Origin: a virus | Reading direction: 5' to 3' (one strand) | Length of the DNA stretch: 28,374 nt | IMG/VR virus record: IMGVR_UViG_3300044824_000141 | Location: 1-28,374 of that record | Shown: positions 2,990 to 27,520 of the stretch, piece after piece | Layout: each line of letters starts with the position of its first letter | Position numbering within the stretch: the stretch's first letter is position 1 | Notes under the pieces: generated by a model | Told to the model about the DNA's origin: nothing | Seen by the model: only the letters and a program-made list of their open reading frames with translations | The model's database searches: none | Made by a program: the position numbers and the translations under genes

Positions 2990-3829
2990 TTAGGCTCGCA
3001 GAGCAGCCCACAGAGAGCAGAACGCATACGCCGCCTGAAGCGGGACCACGCCATTGCCGAGAAGCCGCAGCCAATGGGCGCGATCTCGGGCCAGCCCATC
3101 AGCCAGCAGACAAACCTCGGATTGAGCCGGGGCGAGCGTGCGGTCTTCTCGTAGGACTCGTCGCCATGCGTCGGTCTCTCCTGGTCCGGGCGGAAAGAGC
3201 AGGCGACGCAGCTCGTCGGGAATTGGTTCGCCCACTGGCGCACTTGCCCCGCCAAGAGCAGCTCGTTCTTCCGCGCCCCGCCCCGCGACGTGCTCCCGCC
3301 TTTGGACATATCCACGGGTGTTGCCCAGAGCGAGAATGAACAGTCGCTCCCTCTTCTGGCTGCCGCCAATTTCTGCCGCTGTGAACAGGCCCGCCGCAAC
3401 CCCGTAGCCCAGCCCTTCAAGGTCCCGGGCGACCTGATCGAATCCGAGGGACAGGTGGCCGGGCACGTTTTCGAGAAAGACGATCCCGGGTTCAGCTTCG
3501 CCAACGACGCGAGCGACGTGCGGCCACAGGTGGCGAGGATCGTCCTGTCCACGTCGTTTGCCAGCGAGGCTGAAGGGCTGGCAGGGGTAGCCCGCAGTGA
3601 GCGTATCCACGACTCCACGCCACGCGCTGCCGTCGAAGGATCGCAAGTCCGTCCAAATAGGCGATTCATCCAGGCAACCCGCTTCCATTGCCTCAGCCAG
3701 GATTTCGATGGCAGAGGCTTCGTGTTCCACACAACAGACTGTGCGAACGTTTCCCAAAGCGAGTTGCAGCCCCAGGTCGAGGCCGGCGCCGCCGGTACAC
3801 AGCGAGAGATTGTTGAAGGTAATATCCAC
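2990..3829 (-). CDS. DNA (cytosine-5)-methyltransferase
   Basis: About 279 aa from the GTG at 3829. The C5 methyltransferase motifs appear in order: motif I LSLCTGGAGLDLGL (S-adenosylmethionine binding), motif IV GYPCQPFSLAG with catalytic C83, motif VI ENVPGH (residues 120-125), motif VIII QKRERLF (158-164) and motif X LGNGVVPLQAAYAF (257-270). The enzyme transfers a methyl group to carbon 5 of cytosine in double-stranded DNA. The region between motifs VIII and X that sets specificity is short, about 90 residues. I prefer the GTG at 3829, with GAGG eight bases upstream, because the open frame to 4159 overlaps the protease gene and adds low-quality sequence. No restriction endonuclease is adjacent, so this is an orphan phage enzyme that probably protects phage DNA. 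Confidence 0.92.
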   Translation of the reverse strand: MDITFNNLSLCTGGAGLDLGLQLALGNVRTVCCVEHEASAIEILAEAMEAGCLDESPIWTDLRSFDGSAWRGVVDTLTAGYPCQPFSLAGKRRGQDDPRHLWPHVARVVGEAEPGIVFLENVPGHLSLGFDQVARDLEGLGYGVAAGLFTAAEIGGSQKRERLFILALGNTRGYVQRREHVAGRGAEERAALGGASAPVGEPIPDELRRLLFPPGPGETDAWRRVLREDRTLAPAQSEVCLLADGLARDRAHWLRLLGNGVVPLQAAYAFCSLWAALRA

Positions 3830-3941
3830 ACGCCATGCCTCGCTGAGCACTGCAAACCCGCTGGACTCTTGCGAACACTGCTTCCCGAAACGGTGGGCAT
3901 GGACCGCCACGTTGGCGGTCACAAAACAGAACCCGGCAGCT

Positions 3942-4883
3942 TCAGAGGGACCGATGCCCCGCAAGGAAGCGCTGCACCCGGCCGATGGCGTCGTCGCAAC
4001 CGAACAGTCGCTTGAAGGCGGCCGGAAGGGGCTCGCCCGGAGCCGGACCGCCCAGCGATCCGCCGTCTTCCACCGGTATCGCCTCGATCTCGGCCAAGGT
4101 GGGCACCTTCGCGCTGGGATCGACGGCCCACTCGATCCTGGCCGTCCTGGCAAAGGCATGGATGCGCCGCACGGGAACGATGAAGTTGAAGCCTTGCAGC
4201 TTCATCACGCCCTGCGTCAACATGCCCACGTATTCGCCGTTGGCCTTGAGAAACATGCCGCCGCCGGAGGAGCCGGGGAAGGCCACGGCCGTCACCTGGT
4301 CGAAGACCTTGACGTTGGCACCCTTCATTTCCAGAGTCCGTCCGACCTGGCTCAAGACGCCTTCGGTGTAGCTGTTGGCTCCGAACTGGCCGAGCAGGCT
4401 GCCGCAGTGGCTCAGTTCGACGCCGATGGCCGGGACGTAATTCACGTCGGTCTTGAACTTCGCCGAGACCGCAAGCGGGTAGGCGTTCACGCGGCGAACC
4501 ATCAAGAGGGCCAAGTCTTCGCCGAAGTCGGCGTCGGAGAACTTGATGACCCTGGCGTCCAGCTTCGTCTCGCCAACCCGCCGGCCGCCTTGCTGGAACT
4601 CCTGGACAATCTGCGCGTCCCGGAACTCGACCAGCACGCGGGTGCCGCCGTCCGCGGTAATGACCTTGCGGACGACGCGGAGGTTGTCAACGACGTGCCC
4701 TGCCGTCCAGATGAAGGAAACCGTGTCAGCGCCGATCTTGCGGGTGACGATCGTGCCGGAGCCTTGGGCATCGCCGGACTTGATCGTAACGCTGATCTGC
4801 TGCAAATCGTCGGGCACGCCCGCGAGGGCCGCGCCGCTTGCCAGAGTGGCCACAAGAATCAACAACATCGCCAGGTACTTCAT
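3942..4883 (-). CDS. Exported trypsin-like serine protease
   Basis: 313 aa from the ATG at 4883, with GGAG eight bases upstream. The first 21 residues (MKYLAMLLILVATLASGAAL and an Ala) look like a cleavable signal peptide, so the mature enzyme is probably exported. The chymotrypsin-fold triad is visible: H63 in TAGHV, D123 in EDLALL and S206 in GSSGG. The late FNFIVPVRRI segment matches the end of the HtrA/trypsin-like fold. No PDZ domain follows; the last 70 residues are Pro/Gly-rich and of unknown role. An upstream GTG at 4940 would add a hydrophobic leader but lacks a good ribosome site. It sits in an operon of DNA-metabolism genes, which is unusual. Proteolysis of host surface or periplasmic proteins is inference. 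Confidence 0.88.
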   Translation of the reverse strand: MKYLAMLLILVATLASGAALAGVPDDLQQISVTIKSGDAQGSGTIVTRKIGADTVSFIWTAGHVVDNLRVVRKVITADGGTRVLVEFRDAQIVQEFQQGGRRVGETKLDARVIKFSDADFGEDLALLMVRRVNAYPLAVSAKFKTDVNYVPAIGVELSHCGSLLGQFGANSYTEGVLSQVGRTLEMKGANVKVFDQVTAVAFPGSSGGGMFLKANGEYVGMLTQGVMKLQGFNFIVPVRRIHAFARTARIEWAVDPSAKVPTLAEIEAIPVEDGGSLGGPAPGEPLPAAFKRLFGCDDAIGRVQRFLAGHRSL

Positions 4884-4936: not shown

Positions 4937-5332
4937 TCACATCTCATCAAGCGAAACGCACGCTCCGTAATAGATCGCCGCAACGCCAAACGCCGACTCA
5001 AGACCACAACACAACGAGGCAACCTCCTCGCTGCGGTCCACCTCCAGTTGGCCCTCGTATTCGGGAACCAGGTGATAAAGGAGCGCCTCCAAGACGAAAT
5101 CGCCAAACAGATCAGGGTCGTCACGCCACCAATCGGCAACGATGTGGATGGCGACCCGCGGATCGTCGCCTGTCTCGGCCAAAGGCTCCAAGTCCACGGC
5201 ATAGAGGTACACGTCGCCGTAGTAACGACACATTCTGAACAGGGCGTGCCGTACTTGATCCGACAGACGCCCACGACCTTTGGGCGTCCATTTGCCGGCG
5301 TACATCAGGACATCGCATTGGACATGCTTCAC
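4937..5332 (-). CDS. Hypothetical protein (131 aa)
   Basis: The family is not recognised. The preferred start is the GTG at 5332, whose GTGA overlaps the TGA stop of the helicase gene by four bases, a standard sign of translational coupling. The longer frame to 5389 lies inside the helicase gene. The protein starts with KHVQCDVLMYAGKW and has an acidic, aromatic middle (IHIVADWWRDDPDLFGDFVLEALLYHL). Two adjacent cysteines occur near the end (SLCCGLES). No membrane segment or signal peptide is obvious. Close coupling to the helicase hints at a role in DNA transactions, but this is only context. Confidence 0.6.
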   Translation of the reverse strand: MKHVQCDVLMYAGKWTPKGRGRLSDQVRHALFRMCRYYGDVYLYAVDLEPLAETGDDPRVAIHIVADWWRDDPDLFGDFVLEALLYHLVPEYEGQLEVDRSEEVASLCCGLESAFGVAAIYYGACVSLDEM

Positions 5333-7302
5333 GACACGGCCTCCACGATCTGGAGAGTTCCGTCCACTCCATCCCAACCGGTTTCCCACTGGACGCCGCC
5401 CATTAGCTCGCCCATCGTCATTAGCTCCAACCTCCGGTTCTCACGAATCACGTCCAGGACGCGCTCGTCGCTGGGAAGATGGATCAAGTCAACGATCAGG
5501 CAGCCCTTGTTCAGGTCCATGCCGATGCGGTGGATGCGGTCTTCCGACTGGATGCGGTATTCCGGCTTCCACGAATTGGACCAGTAGACCGCCGTGCGGG
5601 CCTCCACCAGCGTCAGGCTCATGCCGCCCGACTCCGGGTTGGCGACAAAGGCCACTCGCGGCACGTCCATGTTCGCCCAATAGTCGAGGGGCTCTTCCTT
5701 GACCTCGGCCCCGTCGTGGGTGCGCACCTGGAACGCTCCTTGGTCGCACCGCACGACGTTCCATTTCTCCTTGAGGCAGAGGTTCTCCACGCGATCCACG
5801 GAGCCCGTGAAGCCGGCGAACACGACCAGGCGGCCGGTCTCCTCGTTCTCGTCCAAGAGCATCCGCAGGGCGGTTTCCTTGGGACAGGGAATCTGGCGGG
5901 CCACGCGGACCAGCTTGGGAACGTGTTGCGTGCCGCCGCAGGCCGGACACGTCGCCGTCTGTTCGACCAGTCGTGCAACGACCTCGGGCGGCAACATGCC
6001 GATGTCACGGTAGACCCGCCCCGTGTCCTTCGGGTCCGTCCACTCGCTCACACGGCCATCCTTGCAATGACGGCACACAGCCATGCCATCTTCGACCTCG
6101 CGGTACTGGAAGCCGTCGCTCAACTCGCGGAGCAGCGTCATGCCGGTGACAGCGTTCGGGGCCGCTTGCACGATGGCCTCGGCCGCGCGGAGCAGGCTGG
6201 CGGTCGGCTTGCAGATGATCTTGCGATAGCGCTTGTCCGGCAGGTTCAAGCAGTCCTTTTTGTGCTTGATCGTCACCAGGCCGTTGAGCCGCTTGTTCAG
6301 GTAGGCGACCTCGTTCTTGCTGGACACGAACTCGTGGAACTCCGCCGGGTCGGTGTCACCGTCCAACTCGTGCGGGCCCGCCTCGCGGTATTCGCCGCAG
6401 ACCGCACACTTCCGCTCGTCGTCCTTCCAGCCGATCCGCTTCTTGAAGCTGCCCTCGTCGAATTGCTGGAGCACCATGAAGGCCATCCGCTCTTCCATCG
6501 CCTTCATGCTCCCTTCACGGAGGAAGCCGGGCCACGCGATCTCGCATTGACTCCACCAATCGACCGGGCTCTTTGGCGAGGGAGTGCCGGACATCTCGAT
6601 GACGTAGCCGCGTTCCAAGCCGAATTGCTCGCGGATCAGGTCCGCAAGGCGCTGGCAGGCTTGCGAACGCTGCGAACCGGAGTTCTTGCAGCGGCTCGAT
6701 TCGTCACAAATGAGTCCCCGGGGAATCGGCTGACCAGGCTTCCACTGCTCCGCCCACGTCGTCAAGCCCTCATAGGTGAAGAACTCGACGTTGAACTTCT
6801 CGAAGGGGAAGGACCACTTGCGGAACTCCCGCTTGATGTTCGGCAGGCTGGTCTTCGGCCCGATCCAGAACCACCAGTCCACGCCCGACCGCTCGATCAC
6901 CTCTTGCGCCGCGAGGGTCTTGCCCGTGCCCATTTCGGCCGCGAAGATGTGGTAGTGGTAGGTCAAGCCGCCATCGGCCAGGTCCTTCTGGTGGTCCTTC
7001 AGCGGCCGGAGGTACTCGTGACGCCCGAGCGGCCGGTCGAACCAGGCATACGCCTTCTCTCCCATGAGGAAGGAAAGCTGGAAACGGTTGCGCTGGCAGT
7101 CTTCGACCGACCAAATCTTCCGCGGGTTCTCGTCCTCGTAGCCATGCCAACGCGAGCCGCGCATGGCCTTGATCTCGTCCTTGAGGCTGTAGGGGCTCTT
7201 GAGGAACCAGATGCGGCCGTCCTTGTACTCCAAAGTGGCGGAGAGCAGGATCGGCGTGCCGGTGGTAGTCTTCGTGCGCAACTTGGTCTGGACGACCGAC
7301 AT
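5329..7302 (-). CDS. SNF2/SF2-type DNA helicase with zinc-binding insertions
   Basis: 657 aa from the ATG at 7302 (GTG at 7305 is also possible); GAGGGGG lies just upstream. The SF2 motifs are clear (numbered from the GTG): Walker A EMGTGKT (124-130), motif II DESS (201-204) followed by RCKN, motif III SGTP (239-242), motif V ESGGMSLTL (558-566) and motif VI QSEDRIHRIG (586-595), whose arginines act as ATPase fingers. This pattern fits the SNF2-like phage helicases that remodel or unwind DNA during replication and recombination. Three CxxC pairs (C300/C303, C411/C414, C453/C456) are inserted between the two RecA-like lobes and probably bind zinc. The stop overlaps the start of the next gene by four bases. 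The 161-bp leader holds a 14-mer shared with the primase leader. Confidence 0.92.
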   Translation of the reverse strand: MSVVQTKLRTKTTTGTPILLSATLEYKDGRIWFLKSPYSLKDEIKAMRGSRWHGYEDENPRKIWSVEDCQRNRFQLSFLMGEKAYAWFDRPLGRHEYLRPLKDHQKDLADGGLTYHYHIFAAEMGTGKTLAAQEVIERSGVDWWFWIGPKTSLPNIKREFRKWSFPFEKFNVEFFTYEGLTTWAEQWKPGQPIPRGLICDESSRCKNSGSQRSQACQRLADLIREQFGLERGYVIEMSGTPSPKSPVDWWSQCEIAWPGFLREGSMKAMEERMAFMVLQQFDEGSFKKRIGWKDDERKCAVCGEYREAGPHELDGDTDPAEFHEFVSSKNEVAYLNKRLNGLVTIKHKKDCLNLPDKRYRKIICKPTASLLRAAEAIVQAAPNAVTGMTLLRELSDGFQYREVEDGMAVCRHCKDGRVSEWTDPKDTGRVYRDIGMLPPEVVARLVEQTATCPACGGTQHVPKLVRVARQIPCPKETALRMLLDENEETGRLVVFAGFTGSVDRVENLCLKEKWNVVRCDQGAFQVRTHDGAEVKEEPLDYWANMDVPRVAFVANPESGGMSLTLVEARTAVYWSNSWKPEYRIQSEDRIHRIGMDLNKGCLIVDLIHLPSDERVLDVIRENRRLELMTMGELMGGVQWETGWDGVDGTLQIVEAVS

Positions 7303-7369
7303 CACAAGACCCCCTCGTCAATCAAGGTAGCTGCGGCTCGCTGCCGGAAGACGGTTGCCAACCGCTTGC

Positions 7370-7466: not shown

Positions 7467-8663
7467 TTAGAGTGATTCGAGACGAGCGACCGCGATTTCG
7501 CAGTTGTGCTCGGTCAACTCGACGCCGATGCACGGGCGGCCGAGCGCCTTGGCGGCCAGCAACGTCGTGCCGCTGCCGGCGAACGGGTCCAAGATCAGCC
7601 CGCCGGTCGGCGTGGACGCGAGCGTCAGGAGGTGTTCCATCAGCTTGATGGGTTTCACGGTGGGGTGATCGTTCTTCGGGCCCCAACTCGGGTTGCGCTC
7701 CTTGTGATTGGCCTTGGCGACATAGAAGAACCGGCTGGCCCCGCCGGAGTCCCCGTAGGTGCCGGCCGCCGTGGCGGTGGGCGGGAAACCGTGGTGATAG
7801 CCACCGTCCTTGCCCTCCGAACGCTGTTGCCCGGCCTTCATCATTCCGCTCTTCAATGTGCCGGTCTGCTCGTCGAGCGCGGCCGCCGCCTCTTCATCCA
7901 GCAGCAGGTTTGCCGGCCACCGGCCGGATTCCGAGCCGCCCACCGGCGTCCGATTGACGCTGACCCAGCCACCATCCGATTCCGAGCGGGGATTGCGGGT
8001 TCGGACCGTGCTGTCGGTGCCGACCCTGCTGCCATTGATGTTCAGACCAGCGACGCCCCACGCCTCGGCATTGTGGGCCAGCGTCCCGTCCAGCGGCTTC
8101 ATCGCCAACGTGATGGGCTCCCAGGCCGGCTTGAGGGAGTTGGCCCAGCCGGTCCACCGCTTCGCCAGGTCCGTCGCCGGGGCCGTGATTGCGCACTCGG
8201 CGGCCGGGTTATGCAGATCGCCGTAAACTGCGTTCGTGCGGCCGTTGTCGGCCAGCGAATAGCCGGGCTGACCGAGCTTGGTGCCAACGACCTCGCGTTT
8301 CGCCCCTTTCGCCTTGTCGATCAGCAGTCCGATGTCCGGGGCCTTGGGGAACCCTTGGCCGTAGAGCCACATGAAACAGTCCCGCACGTCCCAACCGGCG
8401 TCCTCGATCGCGCAGATGAGCCGATGGAAAGTCCGCGTGCCGCCAAAGGCCAGCATCATCGCGCCGGGCTTCGAGACCCGACGAAATGTCTCCCAGAACT
8501 GGACCCCCGGGACACCGTGGTCCCACTCGTGCCCCATGAACTTCAGCCCGTAGGGAGGGTCCGTGCAGATGGTGTCGATGCTGTTGTCGGCAAAGGACGC
8601 CAGCACTTCGCGGTTGTCGCCGCAGTAGAGCGTGATGCCGTTCTTGTCGTAGTAGGGGGTCAT
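7467..8663 (-). CDS. DNA methyltransferase, DPPY type (N6-adenine or N4-cytosine)
   Basis: 398 aa from the ATG at 8663, which overlaps the TGA of the upstream gene by four bases (ATGA). The catalytic motif DPPYGL is at residues 35-40 and the S-adenosylmethionine-binding motif LDPFAGSGTTLLAA is near the C-terminus (DPFAGSG about 359-365). DPPY before FAGSG defines the beta class of amino-methyltransferases. DPPY usually indicates N6-adenine methylation, although N4-cytosine cannot be ruled out. A long central region, about residues 150-330, probably includes target recognition. The last box, KPIKLMEHLL just before the FAGSG motif, is typical of phage and type II/III enzymes. There is no cognate endonuclease nearby. 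With the C5 methyltransferase this makes two modification enzymes in one operon, probably to evade host restriction. Confidence 0.92.
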   Translation of the reverse strand: MTPYYDKNGITLYCGDNREVLASFADNSIDTICTDPPYGLKFMGHEWDHGVPGVQFWETFRRVSKPGAMMLAFGGTRTFHRLICAIEDAGWDVRDCFMWLYGQGFPKAPDIGLLIDKAKGAKREVVGTKLGQPGYSLADNGRTNAVYGDLHNPAAECAITAPATDLAKRWTGWANSLKPAWEPITLAMKPLDGTLAHNAEAWGVAGLNINGSRVGTDSTVRTRNPRSESDGGWVSVNRTPVGGSESGRWPANLLLDEEAAAALDEQTGTLKSGMMKAGQQRSEGKDGGYHHGFPPTATAAGTYGDSGGASRFFYVAKANHKERNPSWGPKNDHPTVKPIKLMEHLLTLASTPTGGLILDPFAGSGTTLLAAKALGRPCIGVELTEHNCEIAVARLESL

Positions 8664-9184
8664 CGGGGCTTGTATTCCAGGAGCAAGGTGTGGTCGGCCG
8701 CCTCCCGCGTGCGATAGTCGCCCCACACGTCGAGGCCCGCACCCCGGAAAAGGCCGTGGATTTTGTTGAAGCCGGCACGAACAGAACTTTCGACGTTGCG
8801 CCCCGAACCCGCGGCCACGGCATCCCGCCACTGCGCCAAGGTGCCGCTGATGACCGCCGCCATGACCCCACGGGCCAGCGTGTCCGCGGTAATGAACGAC
8901 ATGCCCGAGCAGTATTCGAGGATGTCACGCATGTCCCGGTCGTCAGCGATTAGGAAGATGCTGAATGAGACATGCGACAGCAAATGCGGAGCGAAGCCCG
9001 CCGGGGCCTTCTGGTCCCGAAAGGCGGCCAAGCTGCTCAGGAACTTCTCGGTGTCCGACATCTGCCGTGGCGAAGCGTCCACAGCGCGCAGCGGCGAATA
9101 GCCCAGCACTTGCCGGCACGCGCCGGGAAACGCGCGGAAGTTGAAGGCCGGCGTTGAAAGCAGCATGACTTCGGGTGTCGCCAT
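8660..9184 (-). CDS. Hypothetical protein (174 aa)
   Basis: This protein from the ATG at 9184 starts MATPEVMLLSTPAFNFRAFPG. I do not recognise its family. It has a mixed alpha/beta look, with conserved-looking hydrophobic stretches (HLLSHVSFSIFLIAD, then GMSFITADTLARGVMAAVI) and a C-terminal segment rich in Gly, Arg and acidic residues. The open frame extends further upstream to 9718, but that part is an antisense shadow of the preceding gene. The ribosome site is weak; a hairpin lies in the 146-bp leader. The stop overlaps the start of the DPPY methyltransferase by four bases, so the two are probably made together. Confidence 0.65.
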   Translation of the reverse strand: MATPEVMLLSTPAFNFRAFPGACRQVLGYSPLRAVDASPRQMSDTEKFLSSLAAFRDQKAPAGFAPHLLSHVSFSIFLIADDRDMRDILEYCSGMSFITADTLARGVMAAVISGTLAQWRDAVAAGSGRNVESSVRAGFNKIHGLFRGAGLDVWGDYRTREAADHTLLLEYKPR

Positions 9185-10120: not shown

Positions 10121-10136
10121 TAGGGTTCTAGGGTTC
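10121..10136. repeat. Tandem 8-bp repeat over the ParB stop codon
   Basis: TAGGGTTC occurs twice in tandem. The ParB-like stop codon (TAG read on the minus strand) falls inside it. It may only be a small slippage duplication. Confidence 0.6.
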
Positions 10137-11018
10137 TTTGTCGGGCGGCTCCCTTCTCTTGCGATCTCGGTTCAATACGGCTTGACGCTGGACCTCGACG
10201 CTCGCGCGGTCCAGGTGCAGCACCCACGCGAGCGCTGCCCGCCACGCATCGGTCAGGGTCTTGCACTGTTCGGCCACCAACACCAAGGCGGCGCGCGACG
10301 GTTTCTCGTGCTCGGCGATCACTTCCTTCCACGGACGGCCGTGGGCGACTGGCTTGAACTCCGCAGTGAAGAAGGCGTCCAGCTTCCCTTGCCTGACACC
10401 CTCCTGGAACTGCTTCAAGAAGGCTTGCGCAGTGGCCCTGAACTCGGCCACCGGCATCGTGCGGGCGGCGTCGAAGAACTGTGGCTGGAACTTGTACGGG
10501 ATGCGAGCAAGCTCATAAGCCGATCCCAGCGGCATTTCGCCACGGTCCACGGCGGGCTGAAAATCCTGTCGCAGGTTCAGCAGCCCCAAGGTCTCGCTCA
10601 CCCACCTCGGGCTCTTGTGCAGGATGCTGGCGCTGAGTTCCGTGAGCGTGAGTTCTGGCCGGGCCGCCATGATCCTCTTGATCTGCCGGGCGAAATCGGT
10701 GGGGCTGGTTTCCGGCCGGAGGGCGTTGGCCTGAATCTGGATCGCCAACAGATCGTCGTCCGTCAACTCTTTGACCAGGGCCGGCACGGGGGACCGACCG
10801 GTTTCGCGGCAGGCAGTAGCCCGATAGAGGCCGTCCGCCACATCGTACATCCCCGGAAACCGCGCCGAGGCCCGCACCAGGATTGGATTGAGGAGGCCGT
10901 GAGCGGCCACCGAGTCGCGCAGCTCCATGTAGGCCAGGGACCCGCGGGCCACTAATCGGAGCACCACGGGCGGGTCTGCAAGTTGCTCGGTCGGAATCCA
11001 CTTCAACTCGTCGTTCAC
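10128..11018 (-). CDS. ParB/RepB-like DNA-binding protein
   Basis: 296 aa. Residues about 7-100 match the ParB N-terminal (ParB/Srx-like) fold: WIPTEQL, then LRDSVAAHGLLNPILVR (34-49), then DVADGLYRATACRETG (59-74), which corresponds to the family's G-x-R-R box but reads GLYR. A helix-turn-helix follows at about 124-148 (LTLTELSASILHKSPRWVSE), and the rest is helical and basic at the end. ParB proteins bind centromere-like sites and spread using CTP, while phage members also act as regulators or nucleases. The GTG at 11018 is the only start that keeps the whole domain; it directly abuts the 36-bp inverted repeat and has only a poor ribosome site. This makes autoregulation through that repeat plausible. 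It heads the leftward operon, divergent from the primase. Family assignment is good; function is inferred. Confidence 0.82.
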   Translation of the reverse strand: MNDELKWIPTEQLADPPVVLRLVARGSLAYMELRDSVAAHGLLNPILVRASARFPGMYDVADGLYRATACRETGRSPVPALVKELTDDDLLAIQIQANALRPETSPTDFARQIKRIMAARPELTLTELSASILHKSPRWVSETLGLLNLRQDFQPAVDRGEMPLGSAYELARIPYKFQPQFFDAARTMPVAEFRATAQAFLKQFQEGVRQGKLDAFFTAEFKPVAHGRPWKEVIAEHEKPSRAALVLVAEQCKTLTDAWRAALAWVLHLDRASVEVQRQAVLNRDRKRREPPDKEP

Positions 11019-11126
11019 ACCCTAACCAATGCCCAAAAACCCGCGATTGGCTAAACCGACGTGGAAAAACCTGCGGAATTGCAAGCCGACTTAGCCAACC
11101 GCAGGTTTTTGGGCATTGGTTAGGGT
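11019..11126. repeat. 36-bp inverted repeat with internal 12-bp motifs
   Basis: The arms are 11019-11054 and 11091-11126 with a 36-bp spacer. They match at 34 of 36 positions; the only differences are at 11042 and 11046, and the outer 23 bp are perfect. The motif AAAAACCTGCGG occurs in the spacer at 11065-11076, as an imperfect copy at 11035-11046 exactly 30 bp away, and inverted at 11099-11110. The element sits between the divergent ParB-like and primase genes. It could be an operator, a ParB-binding centromere or a replication origin. Confidence 0.9.
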
Positions 11127-11181: not shown

Positions 11182-13848
11182 ATGCCCACTGTCCGCGAAG
11201 CACTCGACAAGTTCCTCCATGCCCGGCAGACGGCTGCCAATGCCGATCTGATCGCGCGCTGGGGCATCCAGATGGAGACCCAGGTGAATGTGGCGGTGGG
11301 CAACGGGGAACCCGTGGCCGGCAAGCGGTCCACATTCACCAACGGCGCCGACACCTGGCATTCGATCCGGGTGCCCAAGGACGCCGACGCGGAGCCGTCC
11401 TGGGAGGACTACGAGCTACGGTACTCCTTCACGGAGCACGCCGAGGGGATCGGCTGCACGGGTTGGGACTGGCAGGCCCGCTGCTCCCGCTGGGTTGCCT
11501 TCGACTTTGACAGCATCACGGCGCACGCCAAGGGCGTGGGGCTGAGCAACGAGGACCTGGAGAAAGTCAAGCAGGCCGCAACGCGGCTTCCCTATATTGA
11601 GCTGCGGAAGAGCACGGGTGGAACCGGCCTCCATCTCTATGCCTACTTCGCCGCCGCCGGCATCCCAACCGAAAATCACACGGTCCACGCCGCCCTGGCC
11701 CGCTGCATCCTGGGCATGATCTCCAGCGAATGCAACTTCGACTTCGCCTCGAAGATCGACTGTTGCGGCGGCGTCATGTGGATATGGCACCGGAAGATGA
11801 CCGCTGGGAACGGCGGCCTCAGCGTCATCAAGCCGGCCACCAAGGTGCTCACGGCGGCCGATCTGCCGGCCAACTGGCGGGACCACATCGCCGTGGTCAC
11901 GCGCAAAAGGAGCAAGGTCCGCGTAAGCGAAGTGCCGGACGACAAGCTGGACACCTTCGAGGCCCTCGCCTCATCGCAGAAGATCATCCCCCTGGACGCC
12001 AGTCACAAAGCCCAGATCGAGGCGTTGCAGCGGTCCAGCTATACGACACTGTGGAACTCCGACCACCACCTGTTGCAGACGCACTCCTGCGCCCTGCAAT
12101 CGCTGATCGACGGGCCAGAGGCGAAGGAACTGGGATTGGTCGGCGTGTTCAAGACGACTTCCCAGGGTCGGAATCCGGGCAACCCGAACTGCTTCCTCTT
12201 TCCGTTGCCCAACGGCGCGTGGCGCGTCTACCGCTTTTCGCCGGGCGTCTCGGAAGCGGAGACTTGGAGCCAGGACGGCCAGGGGTGGACCACCTGCTAC
12301 TTCAACCGCCGGCCGGACCTGGCAGCCGCCGCCAAGGCGCATGGCGGCATGGAAGACCCCGACAAGAAGGGCTATGTCTTCAAGAGCCCCGACGACGCCA
12401 TGCAGGCCGCCAAGGTGTTGGGCCAGCCGGACACGACCATCGACCCGATGTTCAAGGACCGCAAGACACTCCTCAAACCGCACAAGGACGGCCGCCTGGT
12501 GGTGGAAATCGAGCGTACCAAAGGGGACGCCGACCAACCCGAGCCCAAAGGCTGGCTCGCCAAGAAGAGCAAGTGGGTCCGCGTCTTCGAGACCACCATC
12601 CGCGAGCAGACCAGCGACGACAGCGAGGCGACAAAGCACGACAACCTGCTTCGCGCCGTCAAGACGCCGGCCAAACAGTTCGTTGGCTGGGCGCTCTACG
12701 AGAAGATCGAATGGGTCTACCACCCCAGCGGCAACATCAAGATGCACTTGCAAAGCCTGGGCCACGCCAAGGATGAAGCCGAGCGCATCATGGGCGGCGC
12801 ACTTGGCCAAAGCTGGAAGCTGGTCAATTTGCCCTTCCGCGAGGAATACCCGGGCGGCCGACAGTGGAACCGGGATGCCGCTCAGTTCAAGCACCAACCC
12901 GCCGTGCTGGGACCCGACCAGAGGCCGCACCATCCGCATTGGGACATGATCTTCGACCACATCGGACTCGAATTGACGGCCGCCCTCCAAACCCTTCCGT
13001 GGGCCAAGAAGGCCGGCATCAAGACGGGAGCCGACTATCTGCGGGCCTGGGTCGCCTGCGCCTTCCGCGACCCCTTCGAGCCGACGCCGTACCTCTTCCT
13101 GTTCGGCAACGAGGACAACGGCAAGAGCATCTTCCACGAGGCGCTGATGACCTTGGTAACGAAAGGCATCATCAAGGCCGACAAGGTGCTCAAGACGCGG
13201 GGCGATTTCAACGGCGAACTGGCCGGAGCCGTGATTTGCGCCATCGAAGAAACGGATATGTCCAAAGTGCCCGAGGCCCTGCCGCGCATCAAGGAGTACG
13301 TCACGGCCCGCACGCTCGCCATCCGCGAGATGCGGATGAACACGTACCAAATCCCCAACACCACGCACTGGGTCCAAACGGCCAACTTCCAAAGCCACTG
13401 TCCCGTGTTTGCCGGCGACACGCGGATCACGGTCATTGAGGTGTGCGACCTTCTGGAAGAAAGGAAAATCGCCAAACCGCTCTTGCTGGTCAAGCTGGAC
13501 GAAGAGGCCCCGCACTTCATGTACACGCTGATGAACCTGCAACTACCGCCGCCGTTGGGTCGGCTGCGGCTGCCGATAGTCGCCACGCCGAGCAAACTCC
13601 GCACACAGGAACTGAACAAAGACTCCTTGCAGCAATTCCTCGACGACTTCTGCCTTGTCAAGAAGGACGCCCACATTCGCTTCGGCGAGTTCTACGACGC
13701 CTTCCAAAAGACGCTCGACGCCAGCGATAAGGGCGAGTGGTCCAAAATCCGCGTCGGCAAGAAACTCCCCAACCGGCACCAGGTCGTCAGGAGCAACGGC
13801 GAGCGCTTCGTTCCCGACCTGACCTTCAAGACACGGGAGCCGGACTAA
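11182..13848 (+). CDS. Primase-polymerase / SF3-type helicase fusion
   Basis: 888 aa from the ATG at 11182, with GGAG six bases upstream; the open frame to 11116 would begin inside the inverted repeat. The N-terminal part carries archaeo-eukaryotic primase signs: the metal-binding pair in VAFDFDS (107-111) and STGGTGLHLY (144-153). The C-terminal part is a D5/P4-like superfamily 3 helicase: Walker A GNEDNGKS (642-649), Walker B VICAIEETD (684-692) and the sensor stretch HWVQTANF. Such proteins make primers and unwind the origin, so one polypeptide can start phage replication. The middle about 300 residues connect the two and are not recognised. It is the first gene of the rightward operon, divergent from the ParB-like gene, and its TAA overlaps the ATG of the 55-aa gene. 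The inverted repeat upstream is a candidate origin. Confidence 0.92.
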   Translation: MPTVREALDKFLHARQTAANADLIARWGIQMETQVNVAVGNGEPVAGKRSTFTNGADTWHSIRVPKDADAEPSWEDYELRYSFTEHAEGIGCTGWDWQARCSRWVAFDFDSITAHAKGVGLSNEDLEKVKQAATRLPYIELRKSTGGTGLHLYAYFAAAGIPTENHTVHAALARCILGMISSECNFDFASKIDCCGGVMWIWHRKMTAGNGGLSVIKPATKVLTAADLPANWRDHIAVVTRKRSKVRVSEVPDDKLDTFEALASSQKIIPLDASHKAQIEALQRSSYTTLWNSDHHLLQTHSCALQSLIDGPEAKELGLVGVFKTTSQGRNPGNPNCFLFPLPNGAWRVYRFSPGVSEAETWSQDGQGWTTCYFNRRPDLAAAAKAHGGMEDPDKKGYVFKSPDDAMQAAKVLGQPDTTIDPMFKDRKTLLKPHKDGRLVVEIERTKGDADQPEPKGWLAKKSKWVRVFETTIREQTSDDSEATKHDNLLRAVKTPAKQFVGWALYEKIEWVYHPSGNIKMHLQSLGHAKDEAERIMGGALGQSWKLVNLPFREEYPGGRQWNRDAAQFKHQPAVLGPDQRPHHPHWDMIFDHIGLELTAALQTLPWAKKAGIKTGADYLRAWVACAFRDPFEPTPYLFLFGNEDNGKSIFHEALMTLVTKGIIKADKVLKTRGDFNGELAGAVICAIEETDMSKVPEALPRIKEYVTARTLAIREMRMNTYQIPNTTHWVQTANFQSHCPVFAGDTRITVIEVCDLLEERKIAKPLLLVKLDEEAPHFMYTLMNLQLPPPLGRLRLPIVATPSKLRTQELNKDSLQQFLDDFCLVKKDAHIRFGEFYDAFQKTLDASDKGEWSKIRVGKKLPNRHQVVRSNGERFVPDLTFKTREPD

Positions 13849-14519: not shown

Positions 14520-15131
14520 ATGCAAACCTATCCCGGCCTTCTGCATCTGAACGGCAACTTGCTCGTCTCCGTGGACTTGGAGACGACCGGCCGCCAGCCC
14601 GGCTACCACGAGATCATTCAGATCGCCTGCGTGCCGCTGGGACCCGATCTCAAGCCGGCGCCTAGCGTGCGGCCCTTCTACACCGAGATCAGGCCGGACT
14701 TCCCGGAGCGGGCTGAAAGGGCGGCCATGTGCAAGCACGGCGTCCCGATGGAGCAACTGCTCCTTCATGCCCCGAGCCAGGACAAGGTGCGCGACCTGTT
14801 CGTCGAATGGTTCGAGGGCCTGGACCTGCCCTTCAAGAAGAGCCTGGTGCCGATGGCCCACAACTGGGCCTTCGAGGCGTCGTTCCTGAAGGCTTGGCTC
14901 GGCGTCGAACTCTTCGAGAACCTCTGGTACAGCCACGCCCGCGACGGAATGCTGCTGGCCATCGCCATCAACGACAAGGCGGCCATGCGCGGCGAGGCAA
15001 TTCCTTTCAATCGCGTCGGCCTGGGATCGCTCTGCAACAAGTTCCACGTCGTCAACGCCAACGCCCACGACGCCCTGGCCGACGCCCTGGCCGAGGCCGA
15101 AATCTACCGAGCGCTCTTGCAAATGTTCTAG
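14520..15131 (+). CDS. DnaQ-like (DEDDh) 3'-5' exonuclease
   Basis: 203 aa. The fold is identified by ExoI VDLETTG (D19, E21), ExoII AHNWAFEASFL (H114, N115) and ExoIII AHDALADALAEAEIY (H183, D188), which is the DEDDh pattern of proofreading and RNase T-like nucleases. In most family members the ExoII motif has an aspartate that binds a metal ion; here the position reads E119. This may be conservative or reduce activity. Such enzymes trim 3' ends of DNA or RNA. It lies after the primase and the nucleotide-pool gene, so it is probably a replication or recombination exonuclease acting beside the host polymerase. GAG lies six bases before the ATG, with a stronger GGAGG further upstream. Confidence 0.88.
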   Translation: MQTYPGLLHLNGNLLVSVDLETTGRQPGYHEIIQIACVPLGPDLKPAPSVRPFYTEIRPDFPERAERAAMCKHGVPMEQLLLHAPSQDKVRDLFVEWFEGLDLPFKKSLVPMAHNWAFEASFLKAWLGVELFENLWYSHARDGMLLAIAINDKAAMRGEAIPFNRVGLGSLCNKFHVVNANAHDALADALAEAEIYRALLQMF

Positions 15132-15140
15132 GAGTCTGCG

Positions 15141-16235
15141 ATGGCCGCAACAATGGTGCTGACGCTCGCGGAATGGAACAGCATCATCACGGGTGTCAAT
15201 GCGCTCGCGGTCAACCCACCGCCCGGTTGCACGGCGCAGGGGACCATCCCGCAACTCACAGCGCCCCACCGCTGGTCGCAAGCCGACATCACGGCAGTCC
15301 AAGGCGTCTTGAAGTCGATCTGCCCCAGCAACACGTTCCCGACGCCGGCCCCAACCGAATGGAAGCAATCGACCATTGACGCCATCGGCCAGGCGATTTC
15401 CAAGGGCTGGTGCAATTGCCAACCGCCGCAGTGCAAATGCAAGAACGCGGGACCGTCCACCAGCATGTTCGTGGGCGGTTGGACAGTCGCCGGTTGCACC
15501 AGCAACACGGACATGCCTGACTGCAACCCCAACACGGGCACACTCAACAAGGCTTGCCTCCTGGGCGGCAATGCGTACCGTGCCTACAACAACTGGGCGA
15601 TCCAAGCCATCACGGCCTGTACCCTGGCCAAGATGCTGCCGCCCATGAACGCCCAACTGGCCAATTTGCAGGCGGCCATGACCGCCGCTTGTGCCGGTCA
15701 AGAGGCCCCTCTGCCTCCATGCCGCGCGGCAATGGCCGCCGTCCAACAGCAGCAGGCCGCCATTCAGTTGATCCAGAACAACATCAGCACGCTGAACCAG
15801 AAGGCAGGCGTCTACAAGGCACAAGGCGACAGCTACCGCGACCAGGCGATGGCCGCCCTCAAGGCCGTCGTCGGGCAGCCCGGGATGCAGAATACGGCAC
15901 TCCTCATACCGGGGAATGGAGCCCCGTGGCCCGATCTGGACACCAAGACCTGCTGCAACCCGAGCAATTGCATCTCCCGTTGGAGTCTGCAATACCGAAT
16001 CGCCACAAGCACAGGCATGAGCGTTTTTGGAGGATTCCCCACACCTTGGCGGGAAATCCTCTCGGGCTTCTTCTCACCGGACGGGACGCCGTACATCACG
16101 TCCGCCGGAATGTGCCCGCTGTTCGACACCCACACCTGTTGGTCCACCGACTGCTCCGTAGGCATGACGCTGCCCATTTGCCAAGGTGTCTCGACTGTTC
16201 AAGTGCAGTACGTCATCTACTATCCCATTTCGTGA
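15141..16235 (+). CDS. Cysteine-rich hypothetical protein with coiled-coil middle (364 aa)
   Basis: The ATG at 15141 has AGGAG seven bases upstream. I count about 19 cysteines, including CNCQPPQCKCK, KTCCNPSNC and CWSTDC clusters; this density is unusual for a cytoplasmic phage protein. The N-terminal third is Pro/Thr/Cys-rich. The middle, from MNAQLANLQAAMTAAC to GDSYRDQAMAALKAVV, is Gln/Ala-rich and probably helical coiled-coil. The C-terminal part is aromatic and Gly-rich (STGMSVFGGFPTPWREIL) and could be a beta-rich domain. There is no signal peptide. No family is recognised. It follows the exonuclease by nine bases and precedes two other Cys-rich proteins, so the three may form one functional unit. 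A virion or disulfide-stabilised structural role is only inference. Confidence 0.72.
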   Translation: MAATMVLTLAEWNSIITGVNALAVNPPPGCTAQGTIPQLTAPHRWSQADITAVQGVLKSICPSNTFPTPAPTEWKQSTIDAIGQAISKGWCNCQPPQCKCKNAGPSTSMFVGGWTVAGCTSNTDMPDCNPNTGTLNKACLLGGNAYRAYNNWAIQAITACTLAKMLPPMNAQLANLQAAMTAACAGQEAPLPPCRAAMAAVQQQQAAIQLIQNNISTLNQKAGVYKAQGDSYRDQAMAALKAVVGQPGMQNTALLIPGNGAPWPDLDTKTCCNPSNCISRWSLQYRIATSTGMSVFGGFPTPWREILSGFFSPDGTPYITSAGMCPLFDTHTCWSTDCSVGMTLPICQGVSTVQVQYVIYYPIS

Positions 16236-24785: not shown

Positions 24786-25703
24786 TTAGCTGCCCAGGAT
24801 GCCTGCCCCGTCGTCCCACGCCGCCAAGGTTGCCCAGCCGCCGCTGGCCGGATTGATCGCACCGAAGAAAAGGCGATCGACCGTGCCCAGGAAGGCGGAC
24901 TCGCTGTAGCTGCCGACGTTGAGCCAGAACTTGCCGTTGTCCGAAATGTCGAAGTACCAGTTGCCGTCGTTCGGCCGGCGGATGCGAAACCACATCCACT
25001 CCAGCACGGGGCAATCGTAGGTGGTGATGACATCCGGCCAGACATAGCTCGCCGTCGCGTCCCACTTGTTGACGTTGCACTGCTTCTTGTGCGCCCAATA
25101 GTTCTGGCACACGATCTTGCCCGCCGTGTCCATCACGCCGAGGGACGCCCCCGACCACCAGCCGTTGTACGCCGCGGGCCCCATCGACACGCCCCGCACG
25201 GCCGCCGTCAATTGCCACGTCGCGCTCGTCGGCACAGGGCGGGTCAAGGCCGCATTCGTCAAGGTGTTCGTCGCCAGGATGATGCTACTGCCGTTGTCGG
25301 ACTTGACCGCCCCGCCGCTTCCCCAGTCCACGAGCGTGAAGTCCGCCGACGTGAGGAGGTTTTCATTGGCGTCAATGATGCGGAACGCCGGCCGGTCGCT
25401 GCCGAACAGTGGATCATTGTCTTGCAGGTAGCGGTCCATGTTGCCCGCCGTCAGGATCAAATAGGCACGGACGCCGCTGGCGTGCCCGACGTTCGCGGTG
25501 CCCTCCAGGCCGCGCACAATCGTCAGGGAAGTACCCGAGACCGCGGTGCAAAGCACCAGTTCGCTTTCGATCAGGAGCACGAAATTCCCAGCGGTCGGAA
25601 AGGCCGAAGCATCCACAACCGCCAGCGTGGTGCCCGAACCGCCGATAGTGGCACTGAGGATAGCTTGGCTGTTGTTCGCAAACTGCTCGCGGAGTTGGGT
25701 CAT
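24786..25703 (-). CDS. Tail fibre-like protein, tandem paralogue 3 (305 aa)
   Basis: This is the last, most diverged copy of three tandem genes. Shared elements with the others are REQF-x-N-S at the N-terminus, RGLEGT, DNDPLF, RPAFRI-D-AN-NLL, LTRPVP, PNDGNWYF, SDNGK-W and AAWDDGAGILG at the end. The N-terminal 90 residues look like a small beta domain (possibly for virion attachment). The following about 200 residues have a lectin/jelly-roll look with Trp-rich strands, which suggests carbohydrate or surface binding. Unlike the others it has C-containing inserts (CQNYWAHKKQC). Role as receptor-binding or fibre protein is inferred from position and sequence style. Family name is not certain. 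Confidence 0.75.
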   Translation of the reverse strand: MTQLREQFANNSQAILSATIGGSGTTLAVVDASAFPTAGNFVLLIESELVLCTAVSGTSLTIVRGLEGTANVGHASGVRAYLILTAGNMDRYLQDNDPLFGSDRPAFRIIDANENLLTSADFTLVDWGSGGAVKSDNGSSIILATNTLTNAALTRPVPTSATWQLTAAVRGVSMGPAAYNGWWSGASLGVMDTAGKIVCQNYWAHKKQCNVNKWDATASYVWPDVITTYDCPVLEWMWFRIRRPNDGNWYFDISDNGKFWLNVGSYSESAFLGTVDRLFFGAINPASGGWATLAAWDDGAGILGS

Positions 25704-25713: not shown

Positions 25714-26610
25714 CTAGCCGCCCAGGATGCCGGCCCCGTCGTCCCACGCACCCAGCGTCACGTAAGCGCCGCTGCCGCCCATGTCCATGTGCCCGAAGAG
25801 AATCCGGTTCGGAGTGCCCAGGAAGGACCCCTTGCCGAAACTGCCGACTTCGAGCCAGTTCTTGCCGTTGTCCGAAACCTGGAAATGCCAGTTGCCGTCG
25901 TTCGGGTCCGTAATCCGCATCCACAGCCAGTCGGTCGCAAAGACATTCTGGGGGCCTCCAATGTCGGGCGCGACGTAGCCGCCGCTGCCGTTCTGGTGCG
26001 TAATCAGCAGCCCTTCCTCCTGCGACCGGTAGCGCATAATCACGGACTGGTTGCCCGTGTCCAGGACACCGATCACTGCGCCGCCCCAGTAGGACTCGAT
26101 GCTCGTGCCCATCGTCCTGACCGCGGCCGTCAGCGTCCAGTTTGGCCCGGCGGGAATCGGACGTGTCAAGTAGGCCCCGCCGCTCCCTTGCAGCACGATG
26201 CTGTTTCCGCAGTCGTAGGCGACCGAGCCGCCGCCGTAATCCAGCAGTGTGAAATCCGCCGCATGGAGAAGATTCTGGTTCGCGTCCATGATGCGGAACG
26301 CGGGGCGAGTCGTGTCGAAAAGCGGGTCGTTGTCACGGAGATAACTCTGCAAGCCGCCCTGTGATATGACGTGGTAGACGGGAGCCGCCGTGGCGTGAGC
26401 AGCCGCCATTGTGCCTTCCAATCCGCGCGTGACGGTCAGCGTGTTGCTGGAGACTCCGGTGCAAAGCAGCAGTTCGCCGTCGATCAGAACACGAAAATCC
26501 CCGCTGGCCGGGAAAACCGTGGCGTCGGTGACAACAATCGTGGCGTCACTACTGCCGACTGCCCCGTTGAGCACCGTCAGGCTGTCGTTCTTGAACTGCT
26601 CGCGCCGCAT
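25714..26610 (-). CDS. Tail fibre-like protein, tandem paralogue 2 (298 aa)
   Basis: The ATG at 26610 starts MRREQFKNDSLTVLNGAVG. It is close to paralogue 1 over its length, with QFKNDS, TVTRGLEGT, YLRDNDPLF, RPAFRI-MDANQNLL, LTRPIPAGP-WTLTAAVR, TDPNDGNWHF, SDNGK-W-EVGSFGK and AWDDGAGILG in common. Differences cluster in the central loop region (about residues 160-225), which is where a receptor-binding surface would vary. There is no signal peptide. The domain seems to be a beta-sandwich of about 200 residues following a 90-residue N-terminal domain. A structural or adsorption function in the tail is inferred. Confidence 0.75.
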   Translation of the reverse strand: MRREQFKNDSLTVLNGAVGSSDATIVVTDATVFPASGDFRVLIDGELLLCTGVSSNTLTVTRGLEGTMAAAHATAAPVYHVISQGGLQSYLRDNDPLFDTTRPAFRIMDANQNLLHAADFTLLDYGGGSVAYDCGNSIVLQGSGGAYLTRPIPAGPNWTLTAAVRTMGTSIESYWGGAVIGVLDTGNQSVIMRYRSQEEGLLITHQNGSGGYVAPDIGGPQNVFATDWLWMRITDPNDGNWHFQVSDNGKNWLEVGSFGKGSFLGTPNRILFGHMDMGGSGAYVTLGAWDDGAGILGG

Positions 26611-26620: not shown

Positions 26621-27520
26621 CTAAGCACCCAGGATGCCCGCCCCGTCGTCCCACGCGGCCAAGGTCGCCCAACAGCCGCTTCCCCAGGTGTCGATCTGCC
26701 CGAAGAAGATCCGGTCAATCGTTCCCAGGTAGGCCGTCTTGCCGAAACTGCCCAACTGGAACCAGCGCTTGCCGTCGTCCGAGAACCAGAAGTACCAGTT
26801 GCCGTCGTTCGGGTCCGTGATCCGCAGCCACATCCACTCCGTACCGGCGACCGGTATCTGGGAAATAATGTCAGGCGCGACGTAGCCCGCGCCGCCGTCG
26901 TTCTTCGTCACATGCAGCATTTTCCGGTGGGCCAGCCAGCGCACGGACACGATCTGGTTGCCCGTGTCCATGACCCCGATGCACGCCGCGCCCCAGGCCG
27001 CCTGGTTAGCGGTGCCCGTGTTCCTGACGGCGGCCGTCAAGGTCCAGGTGGGGCCCGCGGGGACCGGCCGTGTCAAGGCGACGGTCCCGGCCGTGAGCAC
27101 GATGCTCTTGCCCATGTCCGTCGCCGTCGCGCCGCTTCCGTAGTCGTGCAGCGTGAAGTCGGCCGCCGTCAGGCGGTTTTGGTTGGCGTCGATGATGCGG
27201 AACGCCGGTCGGTCGCTGTCGAACAGCGGGTCGTTGTCCCGCAGGTAGCGCTGCAAGCCGCCCTGCGTCAAGACCTGATAGACGCCGGCCCCGCTCGAAT
27301 GCCCGCTCGCGGCCGTGCCTTCCAGCCCACGGATGACAGTCAGCGTGTTGCCGGAGACTCTCAGGCACAGCATCAGTTCGCTCTCCACGAGGACGCGAAA
27401 GAACCCGCTGGCCGGAAGCACCGTGGCGTCCGTGACCGTAATCGTGCCATCGCCCGCCAGGACCGCCCCGTTCAGCGTCGTTTGGCTGTCGTTCTTGAAC
27501 TGCTCACGGCGTTGCGTCAT
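26621..27520 (-). CDS. Tail fibre-like protein, tandem paralogue 1 (299 aa)
   Basis: The ATG at 27520 starts MTQRREQFKNDSQTTLNGAV; GGAG lies eight bases upstream. It is the first transcribed of three tandem paralogues. The N-terminal domain ends near RGLEGTAASGHSSG, then comes YLRDNDPLFDSDRPAFRI, a conserved beta core (LTRPVPAGPTWTLTAAVR, ITDPNDGNWYFWFSDDGK) and the shared C-terminus WATLAAWDDGAGILG. Between the conserved blocks the sequence differs from the other copies. Repeated copies of one fibre protein in a tail operon can allow mixed assembly on one virion or recombination to switch host range. The exact place in the virion is unknown. Confidence 0.75.
   Translation of the reverse strand: MTQRREQFKNDSQTTLNGAVLAGDGTITVTDATVLPASGFFRVLVESELMLCLRVSGNTLTVIRGLEGTAASGHSSGAGVYQVLTQGGLQRYLRDNDPLFDSDRPAFRIIDANQNRLTAADFTLHDYGSGATATDMGKSIVLTAGTVALTRPVPAGPTWTLTAAVRNTGTANQAAWGAACIGVMDTGNQIVSVRWLAHRKMLHVTKNDGGAGYVAPDIISQIPVAGTEWMWLRITDPNDGNWYFWFSDDGKRWFQLGSFGKTAYLGTIDRIFFGQIDTWGSGCWATLAAWDDGAGILGA

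Follow-up and report, generated by a model that had tools for sequence, protein, structure and literature searches.

Inverted repeat and flanking genes

A large inverted repeat that lies between a ParB-like gene and a primase gene raises the question whether it serves replication, partition or the expression of the two genes. The window analysed here is a whole stretch of 28,374 nucleotides, a virus fragment whose left end lies about 11 kb from the repeat. The arms occupy positions 11019–11054 and 11091–11126, are identical at 34 of 36 positions and flank a 36-bp spacer (11055–11090), just as the earlier note had described. The inverted-block score for 11019–11126 is 26, whereas none of 60 Markov controls built on this region exceeded 11 and nothing else in the window exceeded 16; the repeat is real and far beyond chance, and the repeat strand folds far better than its shuffles (z about −8). 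The left arm adjoins the GTG start codon (11018) of the ParB-like gene (10128–11018, minus strand; ParB_N plus a ParB-type HTH), whose product has the ParB/Noc/KorB fold. On the other side, the DUF5906 primase/helicase-type gene (11182–13848, plus strand), whose product matches phage primases, begins with an ATG at 11182, 55 nt past the right arm, and a GGAGA ribosome-binding-like sequence lies upstream of this codon; the placement of the repeat between the two gene starts is thus also confirmed. A MITE or transposon end repeats were rejected as an explanation, since the flanks differ (TTCAC and AGCCG), there is no target-site duplication and the repeat occurs at a single locus in the record. 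A terminator or an ordinary sigma-70 promoter was dropped as well, because consensus scans for both gave nothing at the repeat.

The leftward operon of the window carries two DNA methyltransferase genes (2990–4159 and 7467–8831, minus strand), of the C5-cytosine and N6/N4 types, and a SNF2-like helicase gene at 5329–7305. Three consecutive genes encoding about 300 residues each (24786–25703, 25714–26610 and 26621–27520, minus strand) have closely similar N-termini (REQFxNxSQ...LNGAV...), as if a gene for a tail or receptor-type protein had been triplicated in tandem. A nucleotide search of the annotated phage collection returned no match to the window, and protein searches of this collection returned remote, partial matches alone and no full-length match. 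Related primase genes are found in Planctomycetota metagenome-assembled genomes, which suggests that this phylum is the host of the window's phage and its relatives.

The earlier note had also singled out a 12-mer, AAAAACCTGCGG, and its copies are indeed found where it had placed them, exact at 11065–11076 (plus strand, within the spacer) and 11099–11110 (minus strand), and with two mismatches at 11035–11046, 30 bp to the left of the spacer copy. The family as such did not hold up: about two sites with up to two mismatches are expected by chance per window, so that it is insignificant apart from the arms, and a role as an iteron was rejected because the 12-mer is not above chance outside the repeat. 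Half of it falls in a stretch of 9 nt that is free to vary in relatives, and the conserved unit of the relatives is not the 12-mer.

Conservation and anatomy of the repeated unit

A scan of viral contigs yielded 71 loci with the primase, and among those examined the ParB-like gene lies divergently upstream of it in 58, with ParB identities ranging from 92% down to about 29%. An inverted repeat scoring at least 13 is located between the two genes in 40 of 48 distinct relatives, which are uncultivated phages, whereas 116 of 118 random stretches stayed at or below 12; the two remaining control stretches, both scoring 27, may coincide with genuine repeats at loci whose offsets differ. Relatives that share the gene pair thus mostly carry the repeat as well, and the conservation of both supports the suggestion that it is a control element of the two genes. 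Its span in the relatives varies from 63 to 228 bp and its sequence differs greatly between distant phages, yet both arms of one phage match. The spacing of the window is not conserved: the inner blocks lie 5–8 bp apart in 24 of 26 relatives (40 bp in L069 and 19 bp in L014) versus 36 bp in the window, and the 30-bp phasing of the 12-mer is private to the window.

Some relatives depart further from this arrangement. In the distant relative L039, three copies of CTATCTATTCCTATCGC lie between the ParB-like and primase genes, at −664, −516 and −114 from the primase start, and in L032 the inverted repeat, 120 bp upstream of the primase, runs outward past the unit into imperfect 58-nt arms. Five other distant relatives (L031, L035, L042, L063 and L076) have a long inverted repeat in the same place with a wholly different sequence and a wider spacing of 155–228 bp; L031 and L063 have CCGGAAACA in common near its outer end.

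The anatomy of the arms was derived from an alignment of the 27 phages that could be set in register. Read outward, each arm comprises a 7-nt block (−36 to −30), nine free nucleotides and a 20-nt block (−20 to −1), with a near-invariant T at −7. The 7-nt block is GAAA-like and occurs as CTGAAAA, TGGGAAA, TTTGGAAA and TTAGAAA, and an example of the 20-nt block is TTTTGGCAGTCTTGTATAGGT. Both blocks differ between phages, yet within a phage the two arms carry them in nearly identical form, with arm-to-arm identities of 0.81–1.00 for the 7-nt block and 0.89–1.00 for the 20-nt block; the corresponding value for the 9-nt gap is 0.30–0.56, close to the between-phage level. Because the gap is free to vary and both blocks are matched within a phage, the arms are best regarded as two matching protein-recognised units and not as a selected hairpin. 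A hairpin or cruciform, or an RNA structure, was dropped as an explanation, the arms being unpaired in the 9-nt gap of relatives and Rfam holding no family that matches the repeat.

In the window, the arms agree at 7 of 9 positions of the gap, above every relative, and for this reason the repeat looked like one continuous 36-bp arm. The left promoter-like unit (11019–11054, minus strand) faces into the ParB-like gene and contains the 20-nt block at 11019–11038, the free nucleotides at 11039–11047 and a −35-like 7-nt block at 11048–11054, which reads TTAGCCA on the minus strand. The right unit (11091–11126, plus strand) faces into the primase gene, with its 7-nt block at 11091–11097, the free nucleotides at 11098–11106 and the 20-nt block, TTTTGGGCATTGGTTAGGGT, at 11107–11126, so that the spacer separates the two −35-like blocks. 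A single unit has no internal dyad (dyad score 3.7 versus 3.1 ± 1.0 for shuffled sequences), and it is directional, not palindromic.

The third copy and the phage sigma factor

When long contigs were searched for the unit of the phage concerned, a third, single copy emerged in four contigs, in all of them directly before a member of one gene family and oriented toward its start, and mostly followed by a ribosome-binding-like sequence. This gene heads a packaging/structural operon and was found in eight records, all of which have the phage's own unit upstream in the same orientation, including two in which no long inverted repeat is detectable. The third unit best fits the arms of its own phage, out of 27 phages, in six of six tested. 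Genes for an HNH endonuclease, the terminase large subunit, portal and tail proteins lie downstream, and the contigs that have a terminase and no third unit stop before that place. In the four contigs searched with a matrix, strong units number exactly three per contig. The three units each point at a gene start, sharing the two-element motif and the correct orientation across several transcription units, and since the unit recurs singly before the packaging operon, it is a directional element that stands at the start of three transcription units. For the window's phage the third unit is expected by analogy with the relatives and would be placed outside the 28-kb window; the prediction is one further unit resembling TTAGCCA-N9-TTTTGGGCATTGGTTAGGG before the packaging operon. 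The protein encoded by the head gene of this operon (L115 and homologues) has 177–190 residues with a Cys-rich N-terminus, finds no match in Pfam and only weak matches to unknown families in PHROGs, and is possibly a small terminase or a packaging accessory protein.

A weak Sigma70_r2 signal recurs at one place in most relatives. The protein concerned, of about 210–280 residues and encoded in L113, for example, at 15130–15753, matches phrog_351 (E 5.6e-14) and sigma factors in the PDB (E 2e-9), and its fold matches are all sigma factors, whereas the Pfam sigma domains (regions 2 and 4) score below the curated cut-off. Its gene is present in all 20 relatives G001–G020, which by these matches are judged to encode a divergent sigma-70-family factor with region 2 and region 4. 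The gene is located about 15–19 kb from the repeat on the ParB side, where the window ends at 11 kb, and that of the window's own phage, as judged from the relatives, would lie beyond the window. No clear host-type promoter was found in the regions upstream of the sigma gene.

The unit very probably represents a putative class of phage-specific promoter, and the repeat can probably be explained as two back-to-back, outward-facing copies of it that the phage's own sigma factor would read. This explanation is built on features that were observed directly, namely the conservation, the two-block anatomy, the directionality, the third copy and the sigma-like gene. Because the unit is phage-specific, a phage-encoded reader is likely, and the prediction that this reader is the phage's sigma-70-family factor has a fair likelihood. 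The left unit would drive the leftward ParB-like and DNA-metabolism genes, the right unit the rightward primase genes, and the third copy, seen in relatives, the packaging/structural operon. The 7-nt block would serve as the −35 element and the 20-nt block would span the extended −10 region and reach the start site, an assignment made by position only, as the conserved bases of the unit do not match the sigma-70 consensus. We infer promoter activity with a transcription start at the outer edge of the unit, which fits the block at −36 to −30, the near-invariant T at −7 and the ParB start codon, which abuts the unit in the window's clade; such a start would leave the ParB-like mRNA of this clade leaderless.

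Alternative readings and comparison with known systems

Co-variation was compared in 17 phages, using many tests. The distance between 20-nt blocks gave a partial r of 0.39 with sigma distance after removal of primase distance and a partial r of 0.00 with ParB distance, and the 7-nt block showed no co-variation with sigma region 4; it is suggestive only that the 20-nt block follows the sigma factor rather than ParB. These values bear on an alternative that we consider unlikely, in which the units are operators of the ParB-like protein or of another phage regulator and overlap three host-sigma promoters. The ParB-like protein has the appropriate fold and HTH, KorB of the same ParB/Noc/KorB family is a repressor, the divergent gene adjacency fits autoregulation, and in the same many-test comparison of 17 phages the core of the 20-nt block is also weakly correlated with the ParB HTH (partial r 0.28). 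However, whole-ParB distance explains nothing after removal of sigma or primase distance. ParB-type sites are palindromic and the single unit is not, which disfavours both a ParB operator and a parS site.

A replication origin, at which the adjacent primase/helicase would start replication on a repeat that is either bound or extruded into a cruciform, is very improbable. The primase/helicase gene does adjoin the repeat and the hairpin potential in the window is strong, but the 9-nt gap is unpaired in relatives, a single third copy lies far off before the packaging operon, and the extremes of cumulative GC skew, an indirect proxy, fall away from the repeat in nine contigs, with no turn at the repeat itself. 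There is even less to be said for a centromere of the parS kind, as part of a ParABS partition system. The adjacent gene and its ParB fold are what such a system would lead one to expect, but the unit is directional and non-palindromic, its third copy is found at the late operon, and a ParA-type ATPase (PF13614) is absent from 21 records, the search having been positive in 14 of 14 control genomes. Nothing observed calls for the origin or the ParB-type binding site put forward in the earlier note, the single third copy speaks against both, and neither is borne out, although either might at most be an added function. A striking palindrome that neighbours genes of the ParB and primase types is thus not necessarily an origin or a centromere. 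Least probable of all are promoters recognised by a single-subunit phage RNA polymerase of the T7 type, which the phage-specific blocks of about 20 nt ending in TATA-GGG (TA-GG end) resemble, but a separate −35-like block is not a feature of T7 promoters, these phages encode a sigma factor, and PF00940 gave no match in 21 records, a weak negative as the positive control was silent too.

Returning to back-to-back phage promoters, a broader proposal is tentative and somewhat doubtful: a Planctomycetota phage family may run its genome by way of a single promoter, present in three copies, and its own sigma factor, promoter and sigma factor having diverged together fast into dozens of distinct pairs among related phages, with the main pair of promoters locked back to back 5–8 bp apart. 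If this is true, the two main promoters may fire jointly or exclusively. Three promoters and one sigma factor would amount to a sequence-level transcription plan for phages that lack close relatives in the searched phage collection and that would infect a bacterial phylum about whose phages little is known, and some 25 natural sigma/promoter variants would provide material for testing recognition rules.

The earlier note could match the locus to no known phage system, but systems of this kind are known from phiEco32-like phages. PhiEco32 and Salmonella phage 7-11 encode a sigma factor and have few, well conserved phage-specific promoters, some of them before structural genes, which are detectable via pairwise comparison of intergenic regions (PMC4331800). 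The likeness consists in a phage sigma factor combined with few strongly conserved phage-specific promoters, which here are predicted from sequence. The phages are different, the phage collection offering neither nucleotide nor full-length protein matches, and unlike in phiEco32 and 7-11 the unit here is a two-block one of 36 nt, two of its three copies standing back to back between the ParB-like and primase genes. In T4 (gp55) and SPO1 (gp28/gp34), a phage sigma factor redirects the host polymerase to phage promoters, which are many per genome, as compared with three units per contig here, and the sequence of the present unit, unlike theirs, differs strongly between related phages. The KorB/Noc/ParB regulators share the fold of the adjacent gene product, but their sites, like parS-type sites, are palindromic, whereas the unit here is directional and without a dyad. 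The phage group, the two-block unit, the back-to-back pair between the ParB-like and primase genes and the set of diverged promoter variants appear to be new, being undescribed in the literature searched, and the comparison of sequences supports the membership of the unit in the class of phage-sigma promoters.
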